Positions 8,206 to 62,610 of a stretch of 64,000 nt of DNA are shown here, piece by piece. The DNA comes from Ashinkailepas kermadecensis (Eukaryota > Arthropoda > Thecostraca > Neolepadidae). The position numbers and the translations under genes are program-made. The stretch is taken from positions 411,879 through 475,878 of the forward strand of contig JAOTOM010004795.1 in NCBI GenBank assembly GCA_034440615.1, in the 5' to 3' direction. Below the pieces are notes generated by a model. That model was not told the origin of the DNA and searched no databases. It saw only the letters and a program-made list of their open reading frames with translations. Position 1 is the stretch's first letter; each line of letters begins with the position of its first letter.

Positions 8206-8398
8206 TCAGATGAAAAAACCGCTGTACAGACCTGTGTCTCCCAGCAGATCGAAGTACTCGCGGTTGAGGACCAGGGGAGTGGTGAGGTCCAGATATTCGG
8301 AGCCCGACTGGAGCATCTTGTCAAACCAATGCGTCAGCTCCGAGAACGTAGGTCTGGAGGACGGCTGTTCCTGCCAGCACTGGCGCATGATGCTGTAC
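8206..8398 (-). CDS. Ret: RET-like kinase exon F (end of C-lobe)
   Basis: The acceptor is tccacag, with first exon base at 8398. That G completes the Met codon begun as AT at the end of exon E. The frame reads YSIMRQCWQEQP, SSRPTF, a helix-I segment and SEYLDL, then REYFDLLGD. CW plus the invariant RP arginine mark kinase subdomain XI. YLDL corresponds to the PLC-gamma-docking tyrosine region after the RET kinase. The frame closes with a stop at 8206. A CAG/GTCTGT donor with last exon base 8232 offers an alternative end, if the tail continues in a later exon such as 3744-3408. I give the stop-terminated extent. Which end is used is not decided by the sequence. Confidence 0.92.
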
Positions 8399-8942
8399 CT
8401 GTGGACCGGGAGGAACCCTGTACCACACTGCTACCACTGTCAGACATGATGTTACCTGTGACAGTATGCTACCACTGTCAGCACTGGCACATGATGCTGT
8501 ACCTGTGGACAGAGAGGAACCTGTACCACATGCTACCACTGTCAGCACTGGCACATGATGCTGTACCTGTGGACAGGGAGGAACCTTTACCACCCTCTTC
8601 CACTGCCAGCACTGGCACATGATGCTGTACCTGTGGACAGGGAGGAACCTGTACCACACTGCTACCACTGCCAGCACTGGCACATGATGCTGTACCTGTG
8701 GACAGAGAGGAACCTGTACCACACTGCTACCACTGCCAGCACTGGCACATGATGCTGTACCTGTGGACAGAGAGGAACCTGTACCACACTGCTACCACTG
8801 CCAGCACTGGCACATGATGCTGTACCTGTGGACAGGGAGGAACCTGTACCACACTGCTACCACTGCCAGCACTGGCACATGATGCTGTACCTGTGGACAG
8901 AGAGGAACCTGTACCACACTGCTACCACTGCCAGCACTGTCG
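8399..8942. repeat. 65-bp minisatellite built from the exon F splice acceptor
   Basis: Copies of catgatgctgtacctgtgga start near 8490, 8553, 8618, 8683, 8748, 8813 and 8878, a spacing of 63-65 bp. A diverged first unit next to the exon lacks it. Read on the minus strand, every unit contains tccacag/GTACAGCATCATG and continues to the tgctggcag of the exon. That is the exon F acceptor plus about 28 nt of coding sequence, with one main mismatch (CGCC to TGCC), plus about 37 nt of intron. AG is kept in each copy. The array directly abuts the real acceptor at 8398. Confidence 0.93.
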
Positions 8943-9142
8943 CATAGCATGTGCCTGTTGATACGCTGCACCACCACCTGCCATGCTACATCACTCGGAA
9001 CTGAAAACCCAGCGATGGTCCTGCCATGCCATATCTCTCGGAGCTGAAAACTCGGCGACAATGCTGACACTCCCGGACAGCTTTCCGGCACATCCTACGG
9101 AACAAATGAAGTTGAGCATGACGCCGATTTCATTGTACTCAC

Positions 9143-9239
9143 ATGTCGAGTGTGCAGTTGAGGGGCCGGTCCATCCTGTAGCCAGACTTCAGCAGATGAC
9201 ACAGGCGCTCCGCTGACACTCCGGGGTACGGGTTTGCTC
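9143..9239 (-). CDS. Ret: RET-like kinase exon E (helix F-G region)
   Basis: The acceptor is cctgcag, with first exon base 9239. The donor is CGACAT/GTGAGT, with last exon base 9143. Phase: GA completes the Gly codon begun in exon D, and the trailing AT is completed to Met by exon F. It encodes ANPYPGVSAERLCHLLKSGY followed by RMDRPLNCTLD, the stretch after the subdomain IX helix. RET has NPYPGI..ERL.NLLKTG.RMERP.NC here, the closest match I know. It is 97 bp, and no tandem array touches either end. Confidence 0.95.
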
Positions 9240-9364
9240 CTGCAGGAAGCACGCTCCAAATGTTAGCTAGCAAGTCCACCCATGTGTAGGTGGGGATACT
9301 CTATGTACAGGATGCAATGGCCATCTGTGACACACTTTTCGCTCGTGTAACCCTGACCACTGCC

Positions 9365-9484
9365 CAGTGGCGTAGCCAGCATTCGTCCAGGGGGTGGATG
9401 GGGTGGTGTGGGGGAACATCTGGAGAAGGCCCCCTATCTTCTTAGGCCTTCTACTTTTCCAAAACACTTGGGCTTATGGTCACT
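9365..9484 (+). mobile_element. hAT-like terminus fragment
   Basis: CAGTGGCGTAGCCAGC begins at 9365 and is followed by a G-rich stretch, the usual head of the dispersed hAT-like elements here. No matching right end or 8-bp target duplication was found before the TA microsatellite. Confidence 0.4.
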
Positions 9485-9485
9485 G

Positions 9486-9561
<76 letters not shown>

Positions 9562-9562
9562 C
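9485..9562. repeat. (TA)n microsatellite
   Basis: About 75 bp of nearly uninterrupted alternating TA, with TTTATA at both edges. Confidence 0.97.
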
Positions 9563-9612
9563 ACGGGATGCAAACGACCACTGGAGCAACCTCAGACTAT
9601 CTGCTGGTGACT

Positions 9613-10489
<877 letters not shown>

Positions 10490-11022
10490 CGCGACTGACC
10501 ACTGACCACACTGACCACACTGACCACTGACCACACTGGCCACTGACCACTGACCACACTGACCACATTGACCACTGACCACACTGACCACTGACCACAC
10601 TGACCACTGACCACCTGACCACCTGACCACACTGACCACACTGACCACACTGACCACTGACCACAGACAACACTGAACACTGAACACTGACCACTGACCA
10701 CTAACCACTGACCACACTGACCACTGACCACCTGACCACTGACCACTGATCACTGACCACACTGACCACTGACCACACTGACCACTGACCACTGACCACA
10801 CTGACCACTGACCACAGACAACACTGAACACTGACCACTGACCACACTGACCACACTGACCACTGACCACTGACCACTGACCACTGACCACTGATCACTG
10901 ACCACACTGACCACTGACCATTGTCCACTGACCACAGACAACACTGAACACTGACCACACTGACCACTGACCACACTGACCACACTGACCACTGACCACA
11001 CTGACCATTGACCACTGACTGA
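10490..11022. repeat. Short-period TGACCAC satellite
   Basis: Runs of ctgaccac and actgaccac in 7- and 9-bp steps, with recurring longer blocks that include the variant gaccacagacaacactgaac at three places. This suggests secondary block duplication. No coding meaning. Confidence 0.9.
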
Positions 11023-11408
11023 CGCATCATCAACATGGTTTGGACCAGGTGCGCACCGGGGAGCGGCCAAGGTGGCCACCGCCGCACCCGAAATGGTCAA
11101 ATTCTTAATGGGAACACGACCTTCCCTGTGCGCTTTCAACGAAAAACATGTGTGGAAGTCCCGTATCTTGGCAAATAGCCATTGCGAATCTAAGCCACTG
11201 AAATTGCAAGTTTGCTTGAGGTTTCATAGGTAGTATTGTATTGTGAACAATGGATCCTTCCGAACTAAGCCTTCATTTGTCATTTTATACACCTTGGCAC
11301 CAAAATAATTGCCTGAGTACGTCCCTCGTCCTCGATCAAAAGCCTTGCCTACTCAGTGATAGAATATCTTCCCATTCACTATTTCTTGACAAACTCACGT
11401 ACGTCGCG

Positions 11409-11695
11409 CACGTGACCTCCCAACAGAACTTCATCCAACACCTCCGTCAGCGCAGGGTAAGGTCCACACATCTGTCGCACGGTGAGCGCGGTCCGTACCA
11501 CGTGACCTCCCAACAGAACTTCATCCAACACCTCCGTCAGCGCAGGGTAAGGTCCACACATCTGTCGCACGGTGAGCGCGGTCCGTACCACGTGACCTCC
11601 CGACAGAACTTCATCCAACACCTCCGTCAGCGCAGGGCAAGGTCCACACATCTGTCGCACGGTGAGCGCGGTCCGTACCACGTGACCTCCGAACA
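11409..11695. repeat. 90-bp tandem repeat, 3.2 copies
   Basis: Units start with cacgtgacctcc near 11410, 11500 and 11590 and are almost identical. Frames are open on both strands because 90 is a multiple of 3. The minus strand contains a gtgcgacag/ATGTGTGG acceptor-like site, and the plus strand contains gcagggtaagg, a donor-like site, in each of the first two copies (a transition removes it in the third). Confidence 0.92.
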
Positions 11696-11844
11696 CCACC
11701 AGTGCAGCTGCGGAGAAGCCGGCCAGACGAGCAGCACAGTTCGGACACTCTCATCAAGCTGGCAAATGATCGGCTTCTGGGAATGGATGCCGTTCTGACA
11801 TGTAGCGTCGTCGCTGCACTAATGAATGCGTTGCGACACTCCCT

Positions 11845-12153
11845 GCTCCAGTCTGAGGAGCTGCTATTCAAGTACTGTGACGCGTGAGGTTTGAGAAGCT
11901 GTTATTCAAGTACTGTGACGCGTGAGGTTTGAGAAGCTGTTATTCAAGTACTGTGACGCGTGAGGTTTGAGAAGCTGTTATTCAAGTACTGTGACGCGTG
12001 AGGTTTGAGAAGCTGTTATTCAAGTACTGTGACGCGTGAGGTTTGAGGCTGTTTTGTACTGTGGCGCGTGAGGTTTGAGAAGCTGTTATTCAAGTACTGT
12101 GACGCGTGAGGTTTGAGAAGCTGTTATTCAAGTACTGTGACGCGTGAGGTTTC
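11845..12153. repeat. 38-bp minisatellite, about 8 copies
   Basis: The unit contains gacgcgtgaggtttgagaag and ctgttattcaagtactgt, with a spacing of 38 bp. One unit near 12040 has several small internal deletions, while its neighbours are intact. Confidence 0.92.
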
Positions 12154-13155
12154 AAGCGACCTCATATAAAGGCGAGGCTGATGACTCCAGAGCCATACGG
12201 GCGACAAACACGGCAGTAATGCAGCCGTTGCCGAGGTGACGAAGGCTTTCTGATGGTCAATAATGCAAATGCATTCGCTTGCAGCTCACGCTCGTTGTAG
12301 ACAACCTCTGTATCAAAGCGTGCTGTCACGGCCCAGTGCATTTGCTGATGACAGGATTACGGAAACATGCGACTTGTGCCGACGAGATACAGCTGGACTT
12401 TTGTGAGGTGAATCCGGCACATCGGTGCTGGATGTGCACCAATCGTGCAAACTAATAGTGCACCAATAGTGCAAACTAATCCACCGTCTCAGTGAAGCTA
12501 AAAGCAAGCCGGTCAATACAAACAGGTGCCTGTCACGCACGTGGACTGAAGTTGAAGTTCGCAGAGAAAGAGCCAATACTGACCCATGTGGTGATGCCAA
12601 CTCTCGCTACAATGCATGAGCATGACGTTGCTCAACTTCGCAGAGTTGGTACAGCAGCCTGGAGGATGACAATAGCAAGTGGATGGTGCTAGATAGGCTG
12701 GGATATATAGCTCCCTAGGAACTTGAGATAAGGGATTGATTGGGGTGAGCGTATGTACATTTATAGTACCTTTTCTAGATAGGCTTAACCCAGATGGGCC
12801 ACTGTGGCTCTTATTAAGCCTCAACACTTTATGACTTTATGAACGTATGACTTTATGACAACATGTGCGTTCTTTTGAATCCCTTTTTGGTTGGAGGGCT
12901 GAGCGTCACCATTGATATGAGCCCCGGGATGCTATGGACCCCATGCCCAACTGCGTCACCTAGAGTTGAATCGGATAAATATAAAGTTTATCTCCCTCCT
13001 CGCCCAACGGGGATAGATTACAGAATATATATTCCTCCAGCAGCGCAAGCATGACCTTCCAATGCCCCACTGCACCACAAATCTGTCTCGGCTGAGCGTG
13101 ACCGCCGATAACCGTCCTCATAACACGACACCCGCCGACGGCAGAGGCATCGCCT
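12154..13155. other. Mostly unique intronic sequence
   Basis: No coding exon or RNA gene seen. There is a small direct repeat of caatagtgcaaactaat near 12440-12480 and a tatgacttta repeat at 12829-12858. The segment 12974-13040 has an imperfect inverted ATA/TAT-rich character. Confidence 0.3.
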
Positions 13156-13159
13156 CCCG

Positions 13160-13835
13160 AGCTCAGTGGCTCCCACAGCCATGGTGGATAATGGGCCTCC
13201 AAGCTCGGTAGCTCCCACGTCCATGGTGGATACTGGGCCTCCAAGCTCGGTAGCTCCCACGTCCATGGTGGATACTGGGCCTCCAAGCTCGGTAGCTCCC
13301 ACGTCCATGGTGGATACTGGGCCTCCAAGCTCAGTAGCTCCCACGTCCATGGTGGATACTGGGCCTCCAAGCTCGGAAGCTCCACACATGGTGGATACTG
13401 GGTAGCTCCCACGTCCATGGTGGATACTGGGCCTCCAAGCTCAGTAGCTCCCACAGCCATGGTGGATACTGGGCCTCCAAGCTCGGTAGCTCCCACGTCC
13501 ATGGTGGATACTGGGCCTCCAAGCTCGGTAGCTCCCACAGCCATGGTGGATACTGGGCCTTCAAGCTCCCACAGCCATGGTGGCCCCTCCAAGCTCAGCG
13601 TCCCACAGCCATGGTGGATACTGGGCTTCCAAGCTCAGTGGCTCCCACATCCATGGTAGATACTGGGCTTCCAAGCTCGGTGGCTATCAAATCCATCTAG
13701 TGGTGTTACGTCCATGGTGGATACTGGGCTTCCAAGCTCGGTAGCTCCCACGTCCATGGTGGATATTGGGCTTCCAAGCTCGGTGGCTTCTGCATCCATC
13801 TAGTGCTCCTATGTCCATGGTGGATACTAGGCTAG
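13160..13835. repeat. 42-bp minisatellite, about 15 copies with truncated units
   Basis: The unit includes agctcccacgtccatggtgg and atactgggcctccaagctcggt. Variants cacagcc and cacgtcc alternate irregularly, and several units near 13560-13700 and 13790 are shortened or diverged. 42 is a multiple of 3, so the frames stay open. Confidence 0.92.
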
Positions 13836-13916
13836 GCTGTTGGGCTTTTACGACGCGTTGACTGCTTCGGCCCATAGCGTGACCAACCTGTTACGCCGAT
13901 TAGTCGTGGGCGAAAA

Positions 13917-13992
13917 GTGGCGACACGTGGGACTCGAACCCACAACCCTTCGATTGGGAGATGGTATTTCACCCGAGGTATCATCGCCCACT
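13917..13992 (-). mobile_element. tRNA-derived element (76 nt, degenerate tRNA-like)
   Basis: The minus strand gives a 76-nt segment with a perfect 5-bp T-stem around TTCGAGT (GTGGG/CCCAC) and acceptor strands that pair if one inserted G is allowed (GTGGGCGA against TCGCCAC). The D-arm and A-box are poor and the anticodon stem does not close well. This fits a SINE head or tRNA pseudogene. About 60 bp of body may follow to 13850. Confidence 0.4.
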
Positions 13993-13999
13993 ATGGTAG

Positions 14000-14575
14000 A
14001 AAATAATTGACGTGGTAAAACTGGCTGGTTACTCGGAGCTACTTGAAGCAGATTTTGCAATCTTCATGCAAGGCAGAGATGGGGTGAGCTAAAGTCTTAG
14101 ATGTGCTGCTGCACTGAACGACTGTTGTACATAAATCAAGCTTCCTACTTCTTTGATACTGAACAGAGTGAAAGATACCGAAAGGATCAAGATTCAACAC
14201 TGAAAATCTATTTTCATATTTGCCGCGAATTTCTACATATATTTATACTACCAGAACCACTCCAACCAGCCTACATAGCTTTTCTGGGCGGACGTATGCA
14301 ATGACGAATGCTTGACGGGTGTGAAGAACATTCATATCACTGTGAACACGACCCTCTCGTAAGAGTTTCACATTTACCGTATATTCGCCGTGTCGAGGGC
14401 CGTTCCTTAGGTAATCTAGGCTGTCGCCTCAACTTCAGGCGCAATTTGTCACCTGCTCTTTGATGTGAATTTCCGACGCGGTGGCGATTTCGCACGCGCC
14501 TATCCATGCTCCAGGGATACGCGCTGGCGGAAATGCCTGCTAGCTGACGTCACGTCATTGTGAGCCCAGCGAAAC
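14000..14575. other. Unique sequence, no gene seen
   Basis: AT-leaning intronic sequence with no repeat, RNA or exon recognised. Confidence 0.3.
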
Positions 14576-14772
14576 GTGTACGGGCCCTGCGAACGTCTAC
14601 GGGTCTTTGCGAAGGTCCACGAACGTCAACAGGTTCTTGCGAAGGTCTACGAACGTCTACGGGTCTTCGCGAAGGTCCACGAACGTCTACGGGTCTTTGC
14701 GAAGGTCCACGAACGTCTACGGGTTCTTGCGAAGGTCCACGAACGTCTGCGGGTTCTTGCGAAGGTTCACGG
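14576..14772. repeat. 30-bp minisatellite, about 6.5 copies
   Basis: The unit is gcgaaggtccacgaacgtct followed by acgggtcttt. Odd units vary in the last six bases. Frames are open because 30 is a multiple of 3. Confidence 0.92.
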
Positions 14773-16606: not shown

Positions 16607-17820
<1,214 letters not shown>

Positions 17821-17821
17821 T

Positions 17822-19400: not shown

Positions 19401-19405
19401 CAACG

Positions 19406-26374: not shown

Positions 26375-27421
26375 CTAGTGTTGCTCGTGGAGATAAGCTA
26401 GTGCATGTTTCTTGACGTGGCGTGGAGATAAGCAGTCCAGAATGCAAAGGAGAGCTACTTCCGAACGGTCCATTGCTGCTAGTATTTTGTCCGTGACTGA
26501 GATGAGAGCGGTTTCCGTAGAGTGGCGTGGTCTGAAGCCGTGCTGAGTTTGGGCCAGTAGGTGGTTTGAGTTCAGGTGGTGATAGAGTTGCTTCTGCACT
26601 ACCCTCTCTGTGATTTTGGCGATGACCGGAACCAATGAGATGGGCCTAAAATTAGAGGGATCCGAAGGATCTCCTGATTTGTAAATGGGAGTTACTATTG
26701 ACTGTTTCCAAGTGGAGGGGATATCAGCTCTAGTCAGGCATGTGTTTATAATGTCGAGCAGCACTTCTTCGATAAAAAAGAACAGAAATTTGATAACCTT
26801 AATACAGATCCCGTCGGGTCCGCAAGCACTTGTGCTTCTCATGTCCATGACAATTTTGGCTAGCTGTTCGAGGGATATGGGTGATACTTTATAGGAGCTG
26901 GTAGAGACGCGCGATAGCCGGCAAATGGGAGGTGTGTGTTCAGGCATGTTTGCCTGGCGTTTGACCTCTGCTGATACCTTAGGTCCGACACTAACAAAGT
27001 ATTGATTTAGCTGCTCAGGTAGGACCTGAGGTTGAACTCTATGAGATCCTTTTTTGGTGTCGATAATGGGCTTGATAGCACGCCACGCAGCTGATGGGCC
27101 TTTCTGAGCTATCTTTCTGCTAATCTCGTCCGTACAGTCAACTCTAATAGCTGAGCGAACTTGTATGTTAAGTACTTTGTATGTGCTTCTATCTTGCAAG
27201 TGCAAAGCTACATTTCGCCGATGCATGAGCTGTTTGGTAGCTTCGCTAACATGTGGTGCTGTTGGGTTCCGAATTTTGATGTTTCTGAGTGGCAGGTGCT
27301 CGTCGAGAATAGGTGTCAGCAATCTCAGCAGGGTGTCCCATTTGTCAGTTACTGAGATGCGACCAGTGACCTGGACCCAGTCGATCTCACCAAGGTCAAG
27401 GGTCAGTTCCGAGGCATCCAC
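26375..27421 (-). pseudogene. Reverse transcriptase segment of the CR1-like element, truncated at motif A
   Basis: The frame has the finger and palm motifs of LINE reverse transcriptases: CGPDGI, WKQSIVTPIYKSGD, NFRPISLVPVIAKI and HGFRPRHSTETAL. It breaks at LLCILD, where motif A should continue to the catalytic aspartate region, and runs straight into 3' UTR-like sequence. The catalytic YADD/FADD motif C, the thumb and the C-terminal domain are all missing. An internal deletion explains this best. Other breaks upstream (frame changes near 27421 and 27740-27790) make the copy dead. Confidence 0.88.
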
Positions 27422-28155
27422 TCGCCCGAAAAAAATGTGACTTTATCACGGTGTTAACATGCCTGTTTACTTTAATCGAACATATTATAAATTTGTGAGA
27501 ACTGTTGTGGCAGAAACTCACTCTGGTTCTGCCGACAGAGATGGGCGAGTTTGTTATGATGACATCCAATAAAGAGCCTGTGGCGAATGTAGGGCGCTGC
27601 ACTGTCACGGTAAGTGAATAGTTGCTTATGAACTCAAGCAGGTGTGTTTTGCTGGGGCTATTAGCCGTGTCGAGGAGGTTGCAATTTAGATCACCTGCGA
27701 GGTAGAAAGTGACGGTAAAGTTCAGTGTCTCCAATTGAACCTGTCTTTCGAGCTCAGCGAAGTCATCATTTAAGGCAGGAAGAGTGTTACGAGGAGGCCG
27801 CTAGAATGAAATACTTTCCGCTTTTCCCTTTGACTTTGGCCCAGAGTGATTCTAGTTTGGAGCTCGAGTTCGGAGGCGTATAAATTTTCAAAACGGTAAT
27901 AGTTAGCGCTGACTTGGCGATAATCGCCACCCCACCGTAACCATTAGAGTCGGGCCGGTCCGCGCGTTTCACTTGGCAACCGGGGAAGTTAATGAAACGC
28001 GTGGGGGTGCTCGGTCGCAGCCAGGTCTCAGTCGCCACAGCTAGGTCTAGACAGTAATAACGAAGGTCGTGGTGTAGCTCAAGTAGCTTAGGTTTGATAG
28101 ATTGGGCATTGATGAGTCCCAGGTGAAGCTGTCCTTTGCGCTGCTGAGCTGCCAC
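27396..28155 (-). pseudogene. Endonuclease (EEP) domain remnant of the CR1-like element
   Basis: Two overlapping-family frames together cover the apurinic-like endonuclease: the N-terminal strand with the INAQS asparagine, the TETWL glutamate, and GDLNCNLLD with the DxN pair. The last strands, with the SDH motif, read here as NSSHKF, so the catalytic aspartate appears lost. At least one frameshift separates 27734 from 27787. Confidence 0.8.
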
Positions 28156-28430
28156 ATGGCTTGTTCCGCCCCGCTATCCGCGTCTTCTGCCGGCCCAGGC
28201 CTGCCCCGGCGTGTTTTCTTGGGCGCTGTTTTTGTAACGGCGACGCTCCCCTCGGTCGGGTTGGCCGAGGGGAGCGTGAGCTGTTGACTGGCGGCGGCGA
28301 AGGCCGCGGCGGTGATGACGTCACGGACGGGACGGCTGCGCGCCCGTTGCGAGCCCGGGTGACCGGGGGACGTGAAGGCAGTGAATATTTGTACAAGGGC
28401 GATATAGCAGCAGCCTGATTATGTCCGTGT

Positions 28431-36141: not shown

Positions 36142-36612
<471 letters not shown>

Positions 36613-37798: not shown

Positions 37799-37958
37799 CT
37801 TCATGTCACCCAGGTAGGTCATGCCGCGGGCGATTTGCCAGGCGTAGCAGATCAGCTGTTTGGGTGTAATGTGGCTGCGACACATGTGACTGGGACAGCT
37901 GTCATCGTCTGCACTGACGGCGGCCAACGTGGTCTTCCGATTCTTGCACAGGTACGTC
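37799..37958 (-). CDS. Ret: RET-like kinase exon B (kinase insert and helix E)
   Basis: The acceptor is gcctgttccag, with first exon base 37958. The donor is GACATGAAG/GTCAGT, with last exon base 37799. The first G completes Arg with the AG left by exon A, so the join reads GCLR/TYLCKNRK. The middle (TTLAAVSADDDSCPSHMCRS) is a divergent kinase insert. The end, ITPKQLICYAWQIARGMTYL plus GDMK, matches RET helix E (FAWQIS.GM.YL..MK) and leads directly into LVHRD of exon C. RET has Arg at the same junction (SLR.FL.ESRK). Confidence 0.92.
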
Positions 37959-38425
37959 CTGGAACAGGCACGCATGGTGTGGTGCACCGACCCTCTCACA
38001 GACACGTCCTGAAATAGACACACATGGTGTGGAGTGTGTGGTGCACTGACCCTCTCATAGACACGTCCAGAAATAGACACACATGGTGCGGTGCACCGAC
38101 CCTCTCATAGACACGTCCTGAAATAGACACACATGGTGTGAAGTGTGCGGTGCACCGACCCTCTCATAGACACGTCCTGAAATAGACACACATGGTGTGG
38201 AGTGTGTGGTGCACCGACCCTCTCATAGACACGTCCTGAAATAGACACACATGGTGTGGAGTGTGTGGTGCACTGACCCTCTCATAGACACGTTCTGAAA
38301 TAGACACACATGGTGTGGAGTGTGTGGTGCACCGACCCTCTCATAGACACGTTCTGAAATAGACACACATGGTGTGGAGTGTGTGGTGCACCGACCCACT
38401 CATAGACTCGTCCTGAAATAGACGT
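37959..38425. repeat. 59-bp minisatellite built from the exon B splice acceptor
   Basis: Positions equivalent to the exon's first base fall at 38008, 38067, 38117, 38176, 38235, 38294, 38353 and 38412, a spacing of 59 bp with 50-bp short variants. On the minus strand the units read gtctatttcag followed by GACGTGTCTATG, against the real tgttccag/GACGTACCTGTG. Flanking catggtgtgg is shared too. AG is kept in all but the 38067 copy. The pyrimidine tract of the decoys (tctatttcag) looks as good as that of the real site. Confidence 0.88.
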
Positions 38426-46009: not shown

Positions 46010-49000
46010 TGCGAGTGTAGCAATATGTGCCGCGGGTTCAACAGCGTGTGCTGCGGGTGTGCAACAAGATGTGCCATAGGATTGTAACATGTGCCGAGGG
46101 TGTGTCGCACGCTGTGCCATGGGTACGTAGCAACATGTGTCGCGGGTGTGAGCCAGTGTGCCGCGGGTGTATCAGTGTGGCACGGGTGTGCGCCAGTGTA
46201 CCGCGGGTGTATCACAATGTGCCGCGGGTGCATCACAGTGTGCCGTGGACGTGTCACAGTGCGCCGCAGGTGTGTCACAGTGTGCCGAGGGTACGTGACA
46301 GTGTGCCGAGGGTACGTGACAGTGTGCCGCGGGTGTGTCACAGTGTGCCGCGGGTGTGTCACAGTGTGCCGCGGGTGTATCACAGTGTGCCGCGGACGTG
46401 GCACAGTGTGCAGCAGGTGTGTCACAGTGTGCCGAGGGTACGTGACAGTGTGCCGAGGGTACGTGACAGTGTGCCGTGGGTGTGTCACAGTGTGCCGCGT
46501 GTGTGTCACAGTGTGCCGCGGACGTGTCACAGTGTGCAGCAGGTGTGTCACAGTGTGCAGCAGGTGTGTCACAGTATGCCGAGGGTACGTGACAGTGTGC
46601 CGAGGGTACGTGACAGTGTGCCGCGGGTGTGTCACAGTGTGCCGCGGGTGTGTCACAGTGTGCCGCGGACGTGTCACAGTGTGCAGCAGGTGTGTCACAG
46701 TGTGCAGCAGGTGTGTCACAGTATGCCGAGGGTACGTGACAGTGTGCCGAGGGTACGTGACAGTGTGCCGCGGGTGTGTCACAGTGTGCCGCGGGTGTGT
46801 CACAGTGTGCCGCGGACGTGTCACAGTGTGCAGCAGGTGTGTCACAGTATGCCGAGGGTACGTGACAGTGTGCCGAGGGTACGTGACAGTGTGCCGCGGG
46901 TGTGTCACAGTGTGCCGCGGGTGTGTCACAGTGTGCCGCGGGTGTGTCACAGTGTGCCGCGGACGTGTCACAGTGTGCAGCAGGTGTGTCACAGTATGCC
47001 GAGGGTACGTGACAGTGTGCCGAGGGTACGTGACAGTGTGCCGCGGGTGTGTCACAGTGTGCCGCGGACGTGTCACAGTGTGCAGCAGGTGTGTCACAGC
47101 ATGCCGAGGGTACGTGACAGTGTGCCGAGGGTACGTGACAGTGTGCCGCGGGTGTGTCACAGTGTGCCGCGGGTGTGTCACAGTGTGCCGCGGGTGTGTC
47201 ACAGTGTGCCGCGGACGTGTCACAGTGTGCAGCAGGTGTGTCACAATATGCAGCAGGTGTGTCACAGTATGCAGCAGGTGTGTCACAGTGTGCAGCAGGT
47301 GTGTCACAGTATGCCGAGGGTACGTGACAGTGTGCCGAGGGTACGTCACAGTGTGCCGCGGGTGTGTCACAGTGTGCCGCGGACGTGTCACAGTGTGCCG
47401 CGGGTGTGTCACAGTGTGCCGCGGGTGTGTCACAGTGTGCCGCGGGTGTGTCACAGTATGCCGAGGGTGCGTGACAGTGTGCCGAGGGTGCGTGACAGTG
47501 TGTCGCGGGTGTGTCACAGTGTGCAGCAGGTGTGTCACAGTGTGCCGAGGGTACGTGACAGTGTGCCGCGGGTGTGTCACAGTGTGTCGCGGGTGTGTCA
47601 CAGTGTGCAGCAGGTGTGTCACAGTGTGCCGAGGGTACGTGACAGTGTGCCGCGGGTGTGTCACAGTGTGCCGCGGGTGTGTCACAGTGTGCCGCGGGTG
47701 TGTCACAGTGTGCCGCGGGTGTGTCACAGTGTGCCGCGGACGTGTCACAGTGTGCAGCAGGTGTGTCACAGTATGCCGAGGGTGCGTGACAGTGTGCCGA
47801 GGGTGCGTGACAGTGTGTCGCGGGTGTGTCACAGTGTGCAGCAGGTGTGTCACAGTGTGCCGCAGGCGTGTCACAGTGTGCCGCGGACGTGTCACAGTGT
47901 GCAGCAGGTGTGTCACAGTATGCCGAGGGTACGTGACAGTGTGCCGAGGGTGCGTGACAGTGTGCCGAGGGTACGTGACAGTGTGCCGCGGGTGTGTCAC
48001 AGTGTGCCGCGGACGTGGCACAGTGTGCAGCAGGTGTGTCACAGTGTGCAGCAGGTGTGTCACAGTATGCCGAGGGTACGTGACAGTGTGCCGAGGGTAC
48101 GTGACAGTGTGCCGCGGGTGTGTCACAGTGTGCCGCGGACGTGGCACAGTGTGCAGCAGGTGTGTCACAGTGTGCAGCAGGTGTGTCACAGTATGCCGAG
48201 GGTACGTGACAGTGTGCCGAGGGTACGTGACAGTGTGCCGCGGGTGTGTCACAGTGTGCCGCGGGCGTGTCACAGTGTGCCGCGGGTGTGTCACAGTGTG
48301 CCGCGGGTGTGTCACAGTGTGCCGCGGGTGTGTCACAGTGTGCCGCGGACGTGTCACAGTGTGCAGCAGGTGTGTCACAGTATGCCGAGGGTACGTGACA
48401 GTGTGCCGAGGGTGCGTGACAGTGTGCCGCGGGTGTGTCACAGTGTGCCGCGGGTGTGTCACAGTGTGCCGCGGGTGTGTCACAGTGTGCCGCGGGTGTG
48501 TCACAGTGTGCCGCGGACGTGTCACAGTGTGCCGCGGGTGTGTCACAGTGTGCCGCGGGTGTGTCACAGTGTGCCGCGGACGTGTCACAGTGTGCAGCAG
48601 GTGTGTCACAGTATGCAGCAGGTGTGTCACAGTATGCAGCAGGTGTGTCACAGTGTGCAGCAGGTGTGTCACAGTATGCCGAGGGTACGTGACAGTGTGC
48701 CGAGGGTGCGTGACAGTGTGTCGCGGGTGTGTCACAGTGTGCAGCAGGTGTGTCACAGTATGCCGAGGGTACGTGACAGTGTGCCGAGGGTACGTGACAG
48801 TGTGCCGCGGGTGTGTCACAGTGTGCCGCAGGTGTGTCACAGTGTGCCGCAGGTGTGTCACAGTATGCCGAGGGTACGTGACAGTGTGCCGCGGGTGTGT
48901 CACAGTGTGCCGCGGGTGTGTCACAGTGTGCCGCGGGTGTGTCACAGTGTGCCGCGGACGTGTCACAGTGTGCAGCAGGTGTGTCACAGTATGCCGAGGG

Positions 49001-52000
49001 TGCGTGACAGTGTGCCGAGGGTACGTGACAGTGTGCCGCGGGTGTGTCACAGTGTGCCGCAGGTGTGTCACAGTGTGCCGCAGGTGTGTCACAGTGTGCC
49101 GCGGACGTGTCACAGTGTGCAGCAGGTGTGTCACAGTATGCCGAGGGTACGTGACAGTATGCCGAGGGTACGTGACAGTGTGCCGAGGGTACGTGACAGT
49201 GTGCCGCGGGTGTGTCACAGTGTGCCGCGGGTGTGTCACAGTGTGCCGCGGACGTGTCACAGTGTGCAGCAGGTGTGTCACAGTATGCAGCAGGTGTGTC
49301 ACAGTATGCAGCAGGTGTGTCACAGTGTGCCGCGGACGTGGCACAGTGTGCAGCAGGTGTGTCACAGTATGCCGAGGGTGCGTGACAGTGTGCCGAGGGT
49401 ACGTGACAGTGTGCCGCGGGTGTGTCACAGTGTGCCGCAGGTGTGTCACAGTGTGCCGCAGGTGTGTCACAGTGTGCCGCGGACGTGTCACAGTGTGCAG
49501 CAGGTGTGTCACAGTATGCCGAGGGTACGTGACAGTGTGCCGAGGGTACGTGACAGTGTGCCGCGGGTGTGTCACAGTGTGCCGCGGGTGTGTCACAGTG
49601 TGCCGCGGGTGTGTCACAGTGTGCCGCGGACGTGTCACAGTGTGCAGCAGGTGTGTCACAGTATGCCGAGGGTACGTGACAGTGTGCCGAGGGTACGTGA
49701 CAGTGTGCCGAGGGTACGTGACAGTGTGCCGCGGGTGTGTCACAGTGTGCCGCGGGTGTGTCACAGTGTGCCGCGGGTGTGTCACAGTGTGCCGCGGACG
49801 TGTCACAGTGTGCAGCAGGTGTGTCACAGTATGCCGAGGGTACGTGACAGTGTGCCGAGGGTACGTGACAGTGTGCCGAGGGTACGTGACAGTGTGCCGC
49901 GGGTGTGTCACAGTGTGCCGCGGGTGTGTCACAGTGTGCCGCGGGTGTGTCACAGTGTGCCGCGGACGTGTCACAGTGTGCAGCAGGTGTGTCACAGTAT
50001 GCCGAGGGTACGTGACAGTGTGCCGAGGGTACGTGACAGTGTGCCGAGGGTACGTGACAGTGTGCCGCGGGTGTGTCACAGTGTGCCGCGGGTGTGTCAC
50101 AGTGTGCCGCGGGTGTGTCACAGTGTGCCGCGGACGTGTCACAGTGTGCAGCAGGTGTGTCACAGTATGCAGCAGGTGTGTCACAGTATGCAGCAGGTGT
50201 GTCACAGTGTGCAGCAGGTGTGTCACAGTATGCCGCGGACGTGTCACAGTGTGCAGCAGGTGTGTCACAGTATGCCGCGGACGTGGCACAGTGTGCAGCA
50301 GGTGTGTCACAGTATGCCGAGGGTACGTGACAGTGTGCCGAGGGTACGTGACAGTGTGCCGAGGGTACGTGACAGTGTGCCGAGGGTACGTGACAGTGTG
50401 CCGCGGGTGTGTCACAGTGTGCCGCGGGTGTGTCACAGTGTGCCGCGGGTGTGTCACAGTATGCAGCAGGTGTGTCACAGTGTGCAGCAGGTGTGTCACA
50501 GTATGCCGCGGGTGTGTCACAGTGTGCCGCGGGTGTGTCACAGTGTGCCGCGGACGTGTCACAGTGTGCAGCAGGTGTGTCACAGTATGCCGAGGGTACG
50601 TGACAGTGTGCCGAGGGTACGTGACAGTGTGCCGAGGGTACGTGACAGTGTGCCGCGGGTGTGTCACAATGTGCCGCGGGTGTGTCACAGTGTGCCGCGG
50701 ACGTGTCACAGTGTGCAGCAGGTGTGTCACAGTATGCCGAGGGTACGTGACAGTGTGCCGAGGGTACGTGACAGTGTGCCGAGGGTACGTGACAGTGTGC
50801 CGCGGGTGTGTCACAGTGTGCCGCGGGTGTGTCACAGTGTGCCGCGGACGTGTCACAGTGTGCAGCAGGTGTGTCACAGTGTGCCGCGGGTGTGTCACAG
50901 TGTGCCGCGGACGTGTCACAGTGTGCAGCAGGTGTGTCACAGTATGCAGCAGGTGTGTCACAGTATGCAGCAGGTGTGTCACAGTGTGCAGCAGGTGTGT
51001 CACAGTATGCCGCGGACGTGTCACAGTGTGCAGCAGGTGTGTCACAGTATGCCGAGGGTGCGTGACAGTGTGCCGAGGGTACGTGACAGTGTGCCGCGGG
51101 TGTGTCACAGTGTGCCGCGGGTGCGTGACAGTGTGCCGAGGGTGCGTGACAGTGTGCCGCGGGTGTGTCACAGTGTGCCGCAGGTGTGTCACAGTGTGCC
51201 GCGGACGTGTCACAGTGTGCAGCAGGTGTGTCACAGTGTGCAGCAGGTGTGTCACAGTATGCCGAGGGTGCGTGACAGTGTGCCGAGGGTGCGTGACAGT
51301 GTGCCGCGGGTGTGTCACAGTGTGCCGCGGGTGTGTCACAGTGTGCCGCGGACGTGTCACAGTGTGCAGCAGGTGTGTCACAGTGTGCAGCAGGTGTGTC
51401 ACAGTATGCCGAGGGTGCGTGACAGTGTGCCGAGGGTGCGTGACAGTGTGCCGCGGGTGTGTCACAGTGTGCCGCAGGTGTGTCACAGTGTGCCGCGGGT
51501 GTGTCACAGTGTGCCGCGGACGTGTCACAGTGTGCAGCAGGTGTGTCACAGTATGCCGAGGGTACGTGACAGTGTGCCGAGGGTGCGTGACAGTGTGTCG
51601 CGGGTGTGTCACAGTGTGCCGCGGGTGTGTCACAGTGTGCCGCGGACGTGTCACAGTGTGCAGCAGGTGTGTCACAGTATGCCGAGGGTACGTGACAGTG
51701 TGCCGAGGGTGCGTGACAGTGTGCCGAGGGTGTGTCACAGTGTGCCGCGGGTGTGCCACAGTGTGCCGCGGACGTGTCACAGTGTGCAGCAGGTGTGTCA
51801 CAGTATGCCGAGGGTGCGTGACAGTGTGCCGAGGGTGCGTGACAGTGTGTCGCGGGTGTGTCACAGTGTGCCGCGGTGTGCCGAGGGTGCGTGACAGTGT
51901 GCCGAGGGTGTGTCACAGTGTGCCGCGGTGTGCCGAGGGTGCGTGACAGTGTGCCGCGGGTGTGTCACAGTGTGCCGCGGGTGTGTCACAGTGTGCCGCG

Positions 52001-52290
52001 GGTGTGTCACAGTGTGCCGCGGTGTGCCGAGGGTGCGTGACAGTGTGCCGCGGGTGTGTCACAGTGTGCCGCGGGTGTGTCACAGTGTGCCGCGGTGTGC
52101 CGAGGGTGCGTGACAGTGTGCCGCGGGTGTGTCACAGTGTGCCGCGGGTGCGTGACAGTGTGCCGCGGGTGTGCCACAGTGTGCCGCGGTGTGCCGAGGG
52201 TACGTGACAGTGTGCCGAGGGTGCGTGACAGTGTGCCGCGGGTGTGTCACAGTGTGCCGCGGTGTGCCGAGGGTACGTGACAGTGTGTCG
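46010..52290. repeat. 21-bp satellite with higher-order patterns, about 300 copies
   Basis: The unit is cacagtgtgccgcgggtgtg plus t. There are a few recurring unit types: ccgcgggtgtgtcac, ccgcggacgtgtcac, gcagcaggtgtgtcac, ccgagggtacgtgac and ccgcggacgtggcac. They recur in ordered strings, for example two ccgaggg units, two or three ccgcggg units, one ccgcgga unit and one or more gcagcag units. This is a higher-order repeat of roughly 6-9 units. The edges are diverged. At 51880-52280 a shorter truncated unit (ccgcggtgtgccgag) joins the pattern. All frames are open for up to 1958 codons. Confidence 0.97.
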
Positions 52291-52947: not shown

Positions 52948-52955
52948 ATACAGTG

Positions 52956-56170: not shown

Positions 56171-56202
<32 letters not shown>

Positions 56203-56210
56203 CATCCCTG
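55347..56210. mobile_element. Non-autonomous hAT element, 864 bp, perfect TIRs and 8-bp TSD
   Basis: The ends are CAGGGATGCGGAGCCGG and its exact inverse complement (17 bp). GTCAAAAC flanks both sides (55339-55346 and 56211-56218). Subterminal regions are tandem GGCTCC/GACTCC hexamers at about 55377-55530 and 56082-56203. The two hexamer blocks are in the same orientation and nearly identical for about 125 bp, so the right end region seems to have been duplicated inside the element. No transposase ORF. The central 500 bp is AT-rich and unique, with a short cataccatac repeat. Confidence 0.92.
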
Positions 56211-56218
56211 GTCAAAAC

Positions 56219-56752
56219 CTTTGCTGCCGTCCTCGAACGGATGTGCTTCTTTCATCCGCGCAGAGGAAGGTCGCGTCAGGCGCAGAGGAAGGTCGCGTCA
56301 GACACGGAGGAGGGTCGCACCAGTCGTGTCGCGTTTCAGTAGTGTCACGTCGCATGAGTGTCGTTGGCAGTCATTGCAGCGGAAGTCCTGTCTGGACGCC
56401 CACGCAGAGATGTGGCGACGCAAGTCCGGCTATGCAGCCGGCAGAAATACTCAGGCTTCACAGCGGGCATTACAATTGCTCACACAAGCCTGGGAAGTGG
56501 TGCGGGCGCGTGGAGTTCTTCAGATCCAGAGAATGCAAACACCACCTGCAGACAGCAGCGCAGGTCTCAAGTGCCGCTCGTGTCTGTGGAGCGGGCCTTT
56601 AGCGTCGGCTGAAGCGAGCACGGGGGCGGCCAGCAAGGCGACACCCATCTCCGGACCGCTCGTTCTGCTCACTTTCGACGAGCCAGGTGTGACGGCCACC
56701 TGATGTTGCGGTGACGTCACGCCCACGTCACGATGACGTCACACCGACCGAC
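56219..56752. other. Intron just downstream of exon A
   Basis: A 20-22-bp direct repeat (cagaggaaggtcgcgtcag) at 56261-56300. Two TGACGTCA palindromes (near 56712 and 56734) lie a few bases beyond the exon A donor. No further exon recognised. Confidence 0.5.
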
Positions 56753-56942
56753 CTGAGACAGCCGAGCTCGGCGAACTCGATGATGATGCAGACGGGCCCG
56801 CCGGGTCCCGTGCACGCGCCAAGCAGCTTGATCACGTTGGGGTGGTCGACGTCCTTGAGCAGACTGTACTCGGACAGCAGGTCCTGCAGCTCGGCGGCCG
56901 TGCTGGCCACCTTCAGCATCTTCACCGCCACCGGAGTACAGC
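56753..56942 (-). CDS. Ret: RET-like kinase exon A (beta-3 to hinge of N-lobe)
   Basis: The acceptor is ggtccccag, with first exon base 56942. The donor is GGCTGTCTCAG/GTCGGT, with last exon base 56753. Two leading bases complete a codon from a missing upstream exon, and the trailing AG is completed to Arg by exon B. It reads CTPVAVKMLKVASTAAELQD, LLSEYSLLKDVDHPNVIKLL, GACTGPGGPVCIIIEFAELG and CL. VAVK carries the ATP-binding lysine, SEY the helix-C glutamate partner, and HPNVIKLLGAC the alpha-C/beta-4 turn. The gatekeeper position (third I of CIIIEFA) is Ile, where human RET has Val804. RET shows DLLSEF..LK.V.HP.VIKL.GAC here. Confidence 0.94.
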
Positions 56943-59900
56943 CTGGGGACCCCGGCAGTGCCAGATGTAACCATACTGGTCCCAGTACAGCCGCAGGACA
57001 CCAACAGTGTCACACATATCCACACCGGTCCCAGTACAGCCTGGGGACCCGGACAGTGCCAGATGTAACCATACTGGTCCCAGTACAGCCGTAGGACACC
57101 AACAGTGTCACACATATCCACACCGGTCCCAGTACAGCCTGGGGACCCGGGCAGTGCCAGATGTAACCATACTGGTCCCAGTACAGCCGTAGGACACCAA
57201 CAGTGTCACACATATCCACACCGGTCCCAGTACAGCCTGGGGACCCGGACAGTGCCAGATGTAACCATACTGATCCCAGTACAGCCGTAGGACACCAACA
57301 GTGTCACACATATCCACACCGGTCCCAGTACAGCCTGGGGACCCGGGCAGTGCCAGATGTAACCATACTGGTCCCAGTACAGCCGTAGGACACCAACAGT
57401 GTCACACATATCCACACCGGTCCCAGTACAGCCTGGGGACCCGGACAGTGCCAGATGTAACCATACTGGTCCCAGTACAGCCGTAGGACACCAACAGTGT
57501 CACACATATCCACACCGGTCCCAGTACAGCCTGGGGACCCGGGCAGTGCCAGATGTAACCATACTGGTCCCAGTACAGCCGTAGGACACCAACAGTGTCA
57601 CACATATCCACACCGGTCCCAGTACAGCCTGGGGACCCGGGCAGTGCCAGATGTAACCATACTGGTCCCAGTACAGCCGTAGGACACCAACAGTGTCACA
57701 CATATCCACACCGGTCCCAGTACAGCCTGGGGACCCGGGCAGTGCCAGATGTAACCATACTGGTCCCAGTACAGCCGTAGGACACCAACAGTGTCACACA
57801 TATCCACACCGGTCCCAGTACAGCCTGGGGACCCGGGCAGTGCCAGATGTAACCATACTGGTCCCAGTACAGCCGTAGGACACCAACAGTGTCACACATA
57901 TCCACACCGGTCCCAGTACAGCCTGGGGACCCGGGCAGTGCCAGATGTAACCATACTGGTCCCAGTACAGCCGTAGGACACCAACAGTGTCACACATATC
58001 CACACCGGTCCCAGTACAGCCTGGGGACCCGGACAGTGCCAGATGTAACCATACTGGTCCCAGTACAGCCGTAGGACACCAACAGTGTCACACATATCCA
58101 CACCGGTCCCAGTACAGCCTGGGGACCCGGGCAGTGCCAGATGTAACCATACTGGTCCCAGTACAGCCGTAGGACACCAACAGTGTCACACATATCCACA
58201 CCGGTCCCAGTACAGCCTGGGGACCCGGACAGTGCCAGATGTAACCATACTGGTCCCAGTACAGCCGTAGGACACCAACAGTGTCACACATATCCACACC
58301 GGTCCCAGTACAGCCTGGGGACCCGGGCAGTGCCAGATGTAACCATACTGGTCCCAGTACAGCCGTAGGACACCAACAGTGTCACACATATCCACACCGG
58401 TCCCAGTACAGCCTGGGGACCCGGGCAGTGCCAGATGTAACCATACTGGTCCCAGTACAGCCGTAGGACACCAACAGTGTCACACATATCCACACCGGTC
58501 CCAGTACAGCCTGGGGACCCGGACAGTGCCAGATGTAACCATACTGGTCCCAGTACAGCCGCAGGACACCAACAGTGTCACACATATCCACACCGGTCCC
58601 AGTACAGCCTGGGGACCCGGACAGTGCCAGATGTAACCATACTGGTCCCAGTACAGCCGTAGGACACCAACAGTGTCACACATATCCACACCGGTCCCAG
58701 TACAGCCTGGGGACCCGGACAGTGCCAGATGTAACCATACTGGTCCCAGTACAGCCGTAGGACACCAACAGTGTCACACATATCCACACCGGTCCCAGTA
58801 CAGCCTGGGGACCCGGGCAGTGCCAGATGTAACCATACCGGTCCCAGTACAGCCGGAGGACACCAACAGTGTCACATGTATCCACACCGGTCCCAGTACA
58901 GCCTGGGGACCCGGACAGTGCCAGATGTAACCATACTGGTCCCAGTACAGCCGTAGGACACCAACAGTGTCACACATATCCACACCGGTCCCAGTACAGC
59001 CTGGGGACCCGGGCAGTGCCAGATGTAACCATACTGGTCCCAGTACAGCCGTAGGACACCAACAGTGTCACACATATCCACACCGGTCCCAGTACAGCCT
59101 GGGGACCCGGACAGTGCCAGATGTAACCATACTGGTCCCAGTACAGCCTGGGGACCCGGACAGTGCCAGATGTAACCATACTGGTCCCAGTACAGCCGTA
59201 GGACACCAACAGTGTCACACATATCCACACCGGTCCCAGTACAGCCTGGGGACCCGGGCAGTGCCAGATGTAACCATACTGATCCCAGTACAGCCGTAGG
59301 ACACCAACAGTGTCACACATATCCACACCGGTCCCAGTACAGCCTGGGGACCCGGACAGTGCCAGATGTAACCATACTGGTCCCAGTACAGCCGTAGGAC
59401 ACCAACAGTGTCACACATATCCACACCGGTCCCAGTACAGCCTGGGGACCCGGACAGTGCCAGATGTAACCATACTGGTCCCAGTACAGCCTGGGGACCC
59501 GGACAGTGCCAGATGTAACCACACCGGTCCCAGTACAGCCTGGGGACCCGGGCAGTGCCAGATGTAACCACACCGGTCCCAGTACAGCCTGGGGACCCGG
59601 GCAGTGCCAGATGTAACCACACCGGTCCCAGTACAGCCTGGGGACCCGGGCAGTGCCAGATGTAACCATACTGGTCCAGTACAGCCGCAGGACACCAACA
59701 GTGTCACACATATCCACACCGGTCCCAGTACAGCCTGGGGACCCGGACAGTGCCAGATGTAACCATACTGGTCCCAGTACAGCCGTAGGACACCAACAGT
59801 GTCACACATATCCACACCGGTCCCAGTACAGCCTGGGGACCCGGACAGTGCCAGATGTAACCATACTGGTCCCAGTACAGCCGCAGGACACCTACAGTGT

Positions 59901-62610
59901 CACACATATCCACACCGGTCCCAGTACAGCCTGGGGACCCGGGCAGTGCCAGATGTAACCATACTGGTCCCAGTACAGCCGTAGGACACCAACAGTGTCA
60001 CACATATCCACACCGGTCCCAGTACAGCCTGGGGACCCGGGCAGTGCCAGATGTAACCATACTGGTCCCAGTACAGCCGCAGGACACCAACAATGTCACA
60101 CATATCCACACCGGTCCCAGTACAGCCTGGGGACCCGGGCAGTGCCAGATGTAACCATACTGGTCCCAGTACAGCCGTAGGACACCAACAGTGTCACACA
60201 TATCCACACCGGTCCCAGTACAGCCTGGGGACCCGGGCAGTGCCAGATGTAACCATACTGGTCCCAGTACAGCCGTAGGACACCAACAGTGTCACACATA
60301 TCCACACCGGTCCCAGTACAGCCTGGGGACCCGGGCAGTGCCAGATGTAACCATACTGGTCCCAGTACAGCCGTAGGACACCAACAGTGTCACACATATC
60401 CACACCGGTCCCAGTACAGCCTGGGGACCCGGGCAGTGCCAGATGTAACCATACTGGTCCCAGTACAGCCGCAGGACACCAACAGTGTCACACATATCCA
60501 CACCGGTCCCAGTACAGCCTGGGGACCCGGACAGTGCCAGATGTAACCATACTGGTCCCAGTACAGCCGCAGGACACCAACAGTGTCACACATATCCACA
60601 CCGGTCCCAGTACAGCCTGGGGACCCGGGCAGTGCCAGATGTAACCATACTGGTCCCAGTACAGCCGCAGGACACCAACAGTGTCACACATATCCACACC
60701 GGTCCCAGTACAGCCTGGGGACCCGGGCAGTGCCAGATGTAACCATACTGGTCCCAGTACAGCCGTAGGACACCAACAGTGTCACACATATCCACACCGG
60801 TCCCAGTACAGCCTGGGGACCCGGGCAGTGCCAGATGTAACCATACTGGTCCCAGTACAGCCGTAGGACACCAACAGTGTCACACATATCCACACCGGTC
60901 CCAGTACAGCCTGGGGACCCGGGCAGTGCCAGATGTAACCATACTGGTCCCAGTACAGCCGCAGGACACCAACAGTGTCACACATATCCACACCGGTCCC
61001 AGTACAGCCTGGGGACCCGGGCAGTGCCAGATGTAACCATACTGGTCCCAGTACAGCCGTAGGACACCAACAGTGTCACACATATCCACACCGGTCCCAG
61101 TACAGCCTGGGGACCCGGGCAGTGCCAGATGTAACCATACTGGTCCCAGTACAGCCGCAGGACACCAACAGTGTCACACATATCCACACCGGTCCCAGTA
61201 CAGCCTGGGGACCCGGGCAGTGCCAGATGTAACCATACTGGTCCCAGTACAGCCGCAGGACACCAACAGTGTCACACATATCCACACCGGTCCCAGTACA
61301 GCCTGGGGACCCGGGCAGTGCCAGATGTAACCATACTGGTCCCAGTACAGCCGTAGGACACCAACAGTGTCACACATATCCACACCGGTCCCAGTACAGC
61401 CTGGGGACCCGGGCAGTGCCAGATGTAACCATACTGGTCCCAGTACAGCCGCAGGACACCAACAGTGTCACACATATCCACACCGGTCCCAGTACAGCCT
61501 GGGGACCCGGGCAGTGCCAGATGTAACCATACTGGTCCCAGTACAGCCGCAGGACACCAACAGTGTCACACATATCCACACCGGTCCCAGTACAGCCTGG
61601 GGACCCGGACAGTGCCAGATGTAACCATACTGGTCCCAGTACAGCCGCAGGACACCAACAGTGTCACACATATCCACACCGGTCCCAGTACAGCCTGGGG
61701 ACCCGGACAGTGCCAGATGTAACCATACTGGTCCCAGTACAGCCGCAGGACACCAACAGTGTCACACATATCCACACCGGTCCCAGTACAGCCTGGGGAC
61801 CCGGGCAGTGCCAGATGTAACCATACTGGTCCCAGTACAGCCGCAGGACACCAACAGTGTCACACATATCCACACCGGTCCCAGTACAGCCTGGGGACCC
61901 GGGCAGTGCCAGATGTAACCATACTGGTCCCAGTACAGCCGTAGGACACCAACAGTGTCACACATATCCACACCGGTCCCAGTACAGCCTGGGGACCCGG
62001 ACAGTGCCAGATGTAACCATACTGGTCCCAGTACAGCCGTAGGACACCAACAGTGTCACACATATCCACACCGGTCCCAGTACAGCCTGGGGACCCGGGC
62101 AGTGCCAGATGTAACCATACTGGTCCCAGTACAGCCGCAGGACACCAACAGTGTCACACATATCCACACCGGTCCCAGTACAGCCTGGGGACCCGGACAG
62201 TGCCAGATGTAACCATACTGGTCCCAGTACAGCCGTAGGACACCAACAGTGTCACACATATCCACACCGGTCCCAGTACAGCCTGGGGACCCGGACAGTG
62301 CCAGATGTAACCATACTGGTCCCAGTACAGCCGTAGGACACCAACAGTGTCACACATATCCACACCGGTCCCAGTACAGCCTGGGGACCCGGGCAGTGCC
62401 AGATGTAACCATACTGGTCCCAGTACAGCCTGGGGACCCGGGCAGTGCCAGATGTAACCACACCGGTCCCAGTACAGCCTGGGGACCCGGGCAGTGCCAG
62501 ATGTAACCATACTGGTCCCAGTACAGCCGCAGGACACCAACAGTGTCACACATATCCACACCGGTCCCAGTACAGCCTGGGGACCCGGGCAGTGCCAGAT
62601 GTAACCAGCA
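56943..62610. repeat. 98-bp minisatellite built from the exon A splice acceptor, about 58 copies
   Basis: The unit of 98 bp starts at the exon edge. On the minus strand each unit contains gggtccccag followed by GCTGTACT, identical to the real acceptor and the first 8 nt of exon A. Each unit is itself two diverged 49-bp halves (ggctgtactgggaccggtgt... and ggctgtactgggaccagtat...). Around 59126, 59490-59660 and 62400-62480 several half-units occur alone in tandem, which supports the dimer origin. Units are extremely similar, differing mainly at cccggg/ccggac and at gtag/gcag. Confidence 0.96.

Follow-up and report, generated by a model that had tools for sequence, protein, structure and literature searches.

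Minisatellites carrying splice junctions at exon edges of a barnacle RET gene resemble the mirages of amphioxus

Introduction

In amphioxus, minisatellites termed mirages are formed of units that span an exon-intron boundary; they are reported from Adh3, from the globin genes BflGb6 and BflGb9, and from PGBD5 (PMC3087553; PMC3902484), with troponin C named as a further mirage gene (PMC3902484). In these reports, the units measure 10-72 and 150-160 bp and vary in length by locus, the mechanism is unclear, regular mRNA splicing is undisturbed, copy number varies between haplotypes, and the arrays display somatic instability (PMC3087553; PMC3902484). Here we describe a similar layout in an arthropod, within a window of 64,000 nucleotides (nt) of the neolepadid barnacle Ashinkailepas kermadecensis (assembly GCA_034440615.1, contig JAOTOM010004795.1, positions 411,879 to 475,878). 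The minus strand of this window was found to encode the 3′ part of a barnacle RET receptor tyrosine kinase gene, in which 5 of 13 exon edges (the acceptors of exons A, B, C, and F and the donor of exon D) end in a minisatellite whose unit holds that same junction. These arrays are most probably mirage-type minisatellites, the outcome of frequent tandem duplications of which some founders straddled splice junctions. A preliminary description of this DNA knew of no described system with such a layout, a point that is not supported, as the amphioxus mirages match it (PMC3087553; PMC3902484).

The likeness between the two animals extends to several properties: (i) the unit spans an exon-intron boundary and the true edge lies at the end of the array; (ii) arrays occur at 5′ as well as at 3′ splice sites, here at four acceptors and one donor in the window; (iii) the units are local, unrelated between loci, and variable in length; and (iv) many, not all, of the copies keep AG or GT. 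The barnacle arrays differ in occurring in an arthropod rather than a cephalochordate, in the size of one array (about 58 copies, 5.7 kb), in the number of edges affected within one stretch of gene, and in that their rate was set against a matched background; furthermore, they are known here from assembled genomic DNA alone. No mirages outside amphioxus were reported in the literature searched, a scope that left out most of the subscription literature as well as PMC9912274 and PMC7960049, both of which contain the word. What is new here is the phylum, the occurrence in more than one gene of the same genome, the extent, and the measured rate.

Two other systems involve local tandem copies of exon edges or splice signals. 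The Rogers model (cited in PMC3087553) derives intron gain from tandem duplication of sequence containing splice signals; a potato RNA-dependent RNA polymerase (RdRp) gene is a reported case (PMC4974935), and mirages have been proposed as a source of new introns. The barnacle arrays share with this type of gain the addition of splice signals by tandem duplication and differ in that existing junctions are copied into existing introns, with no new intron shown. Tandem duplicated, mutually exclusive exons are likewise neighboring tandem copies in which exon edges are included; there, each copy takes in an entire coding exon, whereas the barnacle units contain only 8-28 nt of exon. Assignment of the arrays to tandem duplicated alternative exons was rejected on the finding that no unit has a whole exon, and assignment to an introner or transposon on the finding that no sequence family is common to the five units.

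Results and Discussion

Five exon edges of RET end in a minisatellite that holds the same junction

A junction probe of 32 nt was placed across each exon edge (12 exon and 20 intron bases) and scored in the adjacent intron. Probe scores of 26-30/32 were detected at the five array edges versus 15-18 at the other eight. The exon part of each unit consensus was then compared with all exon positions, and an equal match was found at only 1 of 962, its own edge, for each of the five arrays; when positions were sampled over the whole window, array copies included, the same score was reached by 2 to 40 of 42,652. Alignment of the arrays with their own exons by blastn gave a clear match for C and F only (F at an E-value of 4e-10), the exon parts of A, B, and D being too short or too diverged for this method. 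The exon parts of C, D, and F correspond to conserved RET coding sequence (LVHRDLA, LVTLG, and YSIMRQCWQ, respectively), common to Pollicipes and largely to human. Since the shared piece encodes conserved kinase residues, the copying in these three cases was from exon into intron. The copies lie on the intron side of the edge, and arrays F and D account for about 69% and 52% of their short introns, respectively. Clean copies of array F start at 8467, and the last, diverged copy of array B extends to the exon edge at 37958. Comparison of the units in ten pairs gave 0.035 for B and C and at least 0.11 for the others; thus, the five units are mutually unrelated beyond chance. Inspection of the array ends for microhomology gave no clear result, and the divergence of the terminal copies, computed ungapped and distorted by indels in F, is not used for any claim.

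These results agree with the preliminary description as to the five junction-bearing minisatellites, their unit lengths of 98, 59, 47, 65, and 52 bp (A, B, C, F, and D, as recovered by Tandem Repeats Finder [TRF]), the 8-28 nt of exon per unit, and the view that this is not one repeat family. Its eleven exon edges become 13 with the addition of exon G, which had been overlooked. Its proposal that duplications seeded at junctions spread into the introns is retained in part: the five arrays do derive from the local junction and occupy its intron side, yet 33 of the 38 arrays of the window lie off the edges. Similarly, the suggested inflation of introns applies to about 7.4 kb of junction arrays, 5.7 kb of which is array A alone, out of 26.8 kb of array DNA, most of which is not junction-derived.

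The gene and its exons

The exons (Table 1) were placed by tblastn with human RET and with the RET proteins of Pollicipes and Amphibalanus, combined with reading phase. When the last seven exons (A-G) were joined, the frame remained open across all six junctions to a stop codon at 3408. By identity, the closest protein to the kinase was the RET-like protein of Pollicipes pollicipes (82%), followed by that of Amphibalanus amphitrite (68%); ungapped, these identities were 84.6% and 81.8%. By E-value, four ENA proteins of 39-42% identity outrank the barnacle RETs. A tree built from 15 arthropod RET kinases grouped the window with the two barnacles at 100/100, with weak support (83/56) for its position among them. 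The window forms the end of its contig (C4298) in an assembly of 907.7 Mb. Two of the RET introns measure 18.8 and 26.1 kb by coordinates; a mean intron of 2,077 bp is given for Pollicipes (PMC8917513). An Rfam search of the window returned 0 matches at the gathering cut-offs.

Table 1. Exons of RET and junction-bearing arrays (window coordinates)
Feature	Position	Strand	Evidence
RET exon A, kinase N-lobe (VAVKMLK...)	56942-56753	-	tblastn with human and Pollicipes RET, phase-consistent joins; acceptor 56942/56943
RET exon B	37958-37799	-	homology and phase
RET exon C, begins with kinase catalytic loop	36318-36189	-	homology and phase
RET exon D	10077-9973	-	homology and phase
RET exon E, junction array at neither edge	9239-9143	-	homology, phase, junction probe
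RET exon F	8398-8232	-	homology and phase
RET exon G, last exon with stop codon, acceptor without array	3667-3408	-	tblastn with Pollicipes and Amphibalanus RET, joined frame
Array A, 98-bp (2 x 49) minisatellite, ~58 copies, acceptor A and 8 nt of exon A	56935..62607	-	TRF; probe 28/32
Array B, 59-bp, acceptor B and ~22 nt of diverged exon B start	37977..38423	-	TRF; probe 26/32
Array C, 47-bp, acceptor C and 17-20 nt of exon C	36302..36610	-	TRF; probe 30/32
Array D, 52/41-bp, donor D and ~11 nt of exon D (9-10 matching)	9590..9983	-	TRF; probe 26/32
Array F, 65-bp, acceptor F and 28 nt of exon F (one mismatch)	8429..8939	-	TRF; probe 30/32; blastn
Second RET copy arrays: A acceptor 65 bp, A donor 23 bp, C acceptor 41 bp, D acceptor 33 bp, D donor 19 bp			by inspection

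Are the edges preferred?

The alternative that survives best is that arrays have no preference for exon edges: tandem duplication is dense and even, a junction is sometimes straddled, and RET is a chance extreme. The window was chosen because of the pattern, and it is rich in repeats. The 93 TRF rows, merged by hand into 38 arrays with a period of at least 18, cover 41.9% of its bases (26.8 kb), with a guanine-plus-cytosine (GC) content of 59% in the arrays, 62% in the exons, and 49% in the remainder. A base picked at random thus has a 42% chance of falling in an array, and under such a base-weighted null the 5 of 13 edges are ordinary (P 0.70). Because an array can lengthen once it has been founded, this null was not used to test seeding. 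When each of the 38 arrays was instead collapsed to one unit and placed at random, 0.30 edge hits were expected and five or more had a P-value of 1.1e-5; with GC matching and at least 8 nt required on both sides of the edge, 0.50 were expected (P 1.0e-4), and over the various overlap rules and GC matching the expectation ranged from 0.30 to 0.75, with a P-value of 7.3e-4 under the laxest rule. A matched control was also constructed from pseudo-edges every 5 nt in the same introns, GC-matched to the real edges, where an event was counted when the probe passed at a position and failed 45 nt toward the exon (an array end); real edges were subjected to the same rule. At a cut-off of 22, the RET window had 5 events versus 0.60 expected (P 1.9e-4), and the P-value stayed between 1.3e-4 and 2.2e-4 across all five cut-offs (20, 21, 22, 24, and 26). 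The idea that the 33 non-edge arrays are themselves exon-derived was not supported: only that at 8977-9058 matched, over 12 nt (E-value 0.004) and 11 nt (0.016), and shuffled units were comparable (0-2 matches below 0.01 per run in 20 runs).

A second RET copy, with 92% protein identity, was found on another contig (C2883) by the exon A search. Six of its exons align to those of the window at 80-90% of bases, while the introns of the two copies gave no colinear alignment, only scattered repeat matches; by this measure it is an old, diverged copy rather than an allele. A genome duplication has been recorded in barnacles (PMC11331182). By inspection, the second copy has junction arrays with other units at 5 of its 13 edges (Table 1), and by the matched control at cut-off 22 it has 5 events versus 0.95 expected (P 1.6e-3). 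The five edges that pass this automatic test form a different set, in which the E donor is counted and the A acceptor is missed. The copies keep AG in the arrays of the A acceptor (4/4) and D acceptor (3/3) and GT in those of the A donor (9/9) and D donor.

An independent sample was taken from the matches to the Pfam myosin head across the genome (78 rows, one of which was dropped as a single long open frame). Tested were 143 of the 154 sides of the 77 exon matches on 18 contigs; the sides dropped were domain ends or had no splice candidate, and 13 of the 77 matches that cross a stop were retained. When a score of 22 and a match at no fewer than 8 of the 12 exon bases were required, 13 myosin edges passed the probe test, and under the full array-end rule with GC matching 12 of 143 remain versus 6.22 expected (P 0.023). 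By strict TRF overlap, 8 edges have an array versus 3.9 expected (P 0.046). Junction arrays were detected at both acceptors and donors. When both RET copies and the myosins were pooled at cut-off 22, 22 of 169 edges were events versus 7.77 expected (P 2.2e-5); without the discovery gene these values were 17 of 156 versus 7.16 (P 1.2e-3, rising to 3.0e-3 when the doubtful E donor is also left out). At cut-offs 20, 21, 24, and 26 the replication without the discovery gene had P-values of 1.9e-3, 1.5e-3, 0.027, and 0.051.

A number of points weigh against an edge preference as a general property. In the window, 33 of the 38 arrays are not on an exon edge. In the second RET copy, the E donor owes its pass to a simple repeat of GTCACAC type, the A acceptor scores 20 and so falls under the cut-off of 22, and AG is kept in 0 of 2 scored copies of the C acceptor. 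The myosin excess is weak, about twofold, and dependent on the cut-off (P 0.055, 0.026, 0.14, and 0.23 at 20, 21, 24, and 26, respectively); the myosin edges were called automatically, to within about 10 nt, and may be non-independent if paralogues or haplotigs are among them. Moreover, the cut-off of 22 was picked after the myosin scores had been seen, and the sample consists of two gene families of one species. Set against the collapsed-array null and the matched control, these points leave an absence of edge preference unlikely. RET is a strong case of edge preference in both copies, and a general preference of arrays for exon edges is likely, though not settled. The excess at exon edges anticipated by the preliminary description was accordingly found against GC-matched intron positions for both RET copies, and in the myosins only at the twofold, cut-off-dependent level.

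Further details of these loci were observed. Myosin array ends accumulate 0-30 nt outside the exon edges (15 versus about 3-6 per 30 nt farther out, by TRF). At the myosin donor C4137:198188 (L071), a copy of the junction lies 129 nt downstream; the probe 45 nt inside the exon also passes, hence the edge fails the control rule, and the duplication of the exon end is perhaps longer than in RET. Three tandem copies of a myosin segment (profile 376-436) were found at C4393:525744, 526974, and 529143 (L027, L026, and L021), likely tandem duplicated, mutually exclusive exons; a probe lag of 1236 nt at this triplet was below the cut-off and uncounted. In the second RET copy (L042), arrays at 4223-4415 and 8101-8464 adjoin the E acceptor and the F donor without exon sequence, and from these exon-free cases arrays may begin at splice sites. 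At the last exon of this copy, a 30-bp repeat of 3.5 copies (9053-9157) overlaps the end of the coding region matched; its unit length is a multiple of three.

Rows of decoy splice sites

Decoys were counted in arrays B, C, D, and F as copies scoring at least 19/32, with more degraded copies in C and F left uncounted. The splice dinucleotide was kept in 24 of the 25 scored decoys (AG in 6/7 of B, 4/4 of C, and 7/7 of F; GT in 7/7 of D); by eye, one of the degraded, uncounted copies in array C has lost its AG. Array A is a double 49-bp repeat with AG in one half-unit, and AG is retained at 61 of 115 upstream half-unit places. A count along this array by a rigid ladder of 98-bp steps (AG in 24/57) was dropped because a 48-nt step shifts the ladder into the AG-less half-unit. 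The rows of decoy splice sites pointed out in the preliminary description are borne out by these counts, and its statement that AG or GT survives in nearly every copy is true of the scored copies in B, C, D, and F. In comparisons of decoy and true site, the number of pyrimidines out of 14 was 8 versus 9 for A, 9 versus 9 for B, 7 versus 7.5 for C, and 11 versus 12 for F, and the donor match out of 9 was 6 versus 6 for D. Thus, decoys and true sites are equally strong by simple sequence measures.

Each of the 28 decoy extensions tested (three from A plus all those scored in B, C, D, and F) would introduce a premature stop codon, in every case located over 50 nt ahead of the last junction, and for this reason the exon-proximal splice sites of RET are presumably the ones used. 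In exon definition, the spliceosome pairs splice sites across a short exon. As the decoys match the true site by sequence, exon definition is invoked here, and it offers a reason for the choice, since only the exon-proximal copy is near the other splice site of the exon. Two points detract from this account: the exon edges were placed by homology and phase and exon-proximal use is inferred, and the argument is weaker for the donor array, where the first D decoy is only 52 nt away.

The same counts could be taken to mean that selection maintains the rows of splice sites for a function, e.g., the tuning of RET via unproductive isoforms, as 24 of 25 scored decoys keep AG or GT and every tested decoy makes a premature stop. 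This reading is very improbable: the units are unrelated, the second RET copy has other units at partly other edges, the myosins have similar arrays, and the dinucleotides would be kept simply because the copies are alike.

Proposed origin and significance

We propose that the barnacle mirages arise in steps. A founding duplication across a junction would occur by slippage or template switching, and the array would grow by unequal exchange or further slippage. The exon-proximal copy would be held by purifying selection on coding and splicing while the other copies drift, and the spliceosome would still take the exon-proximal site via exon definition. The selected end copy may also anchor the array against loss, which could help explain the excess at edges. 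A bolder version of the mirage account is possible, if doubtful: splice junctions would be preferred birthplaces of minisatellites in barnacles through a mutational process tied to exon-intron borders (e.g., replication or R-loop trouble), independent of that in amphioxus and stronger in some genes (RET), which would manufacture spare splice sites, lengthen introns, and feed new exons and introns. That copies were made or misplaced by the assembler is scarcely credible; tandem arrays are hard to assemble and the copy numbers may be wrong, but the copies differ from one another, the five units are distinct, and other contigs have the same layout. An origin from a mobile element or introner-like family inserted at splice sites is extremely improbable: such elements, which bring splice sites with them into genes, do exist, but the five units of the window, compared with one another, are unrelated and each has its own local exon end.

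The presence of mirages in several genes of a barnacle suggests that rows of duplicated splice junctions may form in any lineage where tandem duplication is frequent. A single genome of this kind makes it testable (i) how dozens of near-perfect decoys escape the spliceosome; and (ii) whether junction arrays yield new introns and exons. Such arrays may also be a source of annotation errors in barnacle genomes.

Other repeats and elements of the window

On the minus strand, an open frame of 509 aa (95-1624) resembles open reading frame 1 (ORF1) of a non-long terminal repeat (non-LTR) retrotransposon, with a zinc-knuckle motif by eye and no Pfam match; its best relatives, with identities of about 43-69%, are unnamed proteins drawn mostly from ENA, followed by spider, gastropod, and beetle proteins at about 30-40%. 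Pieces of a long interspersed nuclear element (LINE) were detected in separate frames of the same strand at 26375-28173, including a reverse transcriptase (PF00078) and a weak endonuclease (PF14529) below its cut-off; the third piece (27787-28173) had no Pfam match. The intron between exons A and B contains a 21-bp array of about 289 copies (46136-52193, 6 kb), in which each strand is left with an open frame approaching 2,000 aa; frames of this sort could mislead gene prediction.

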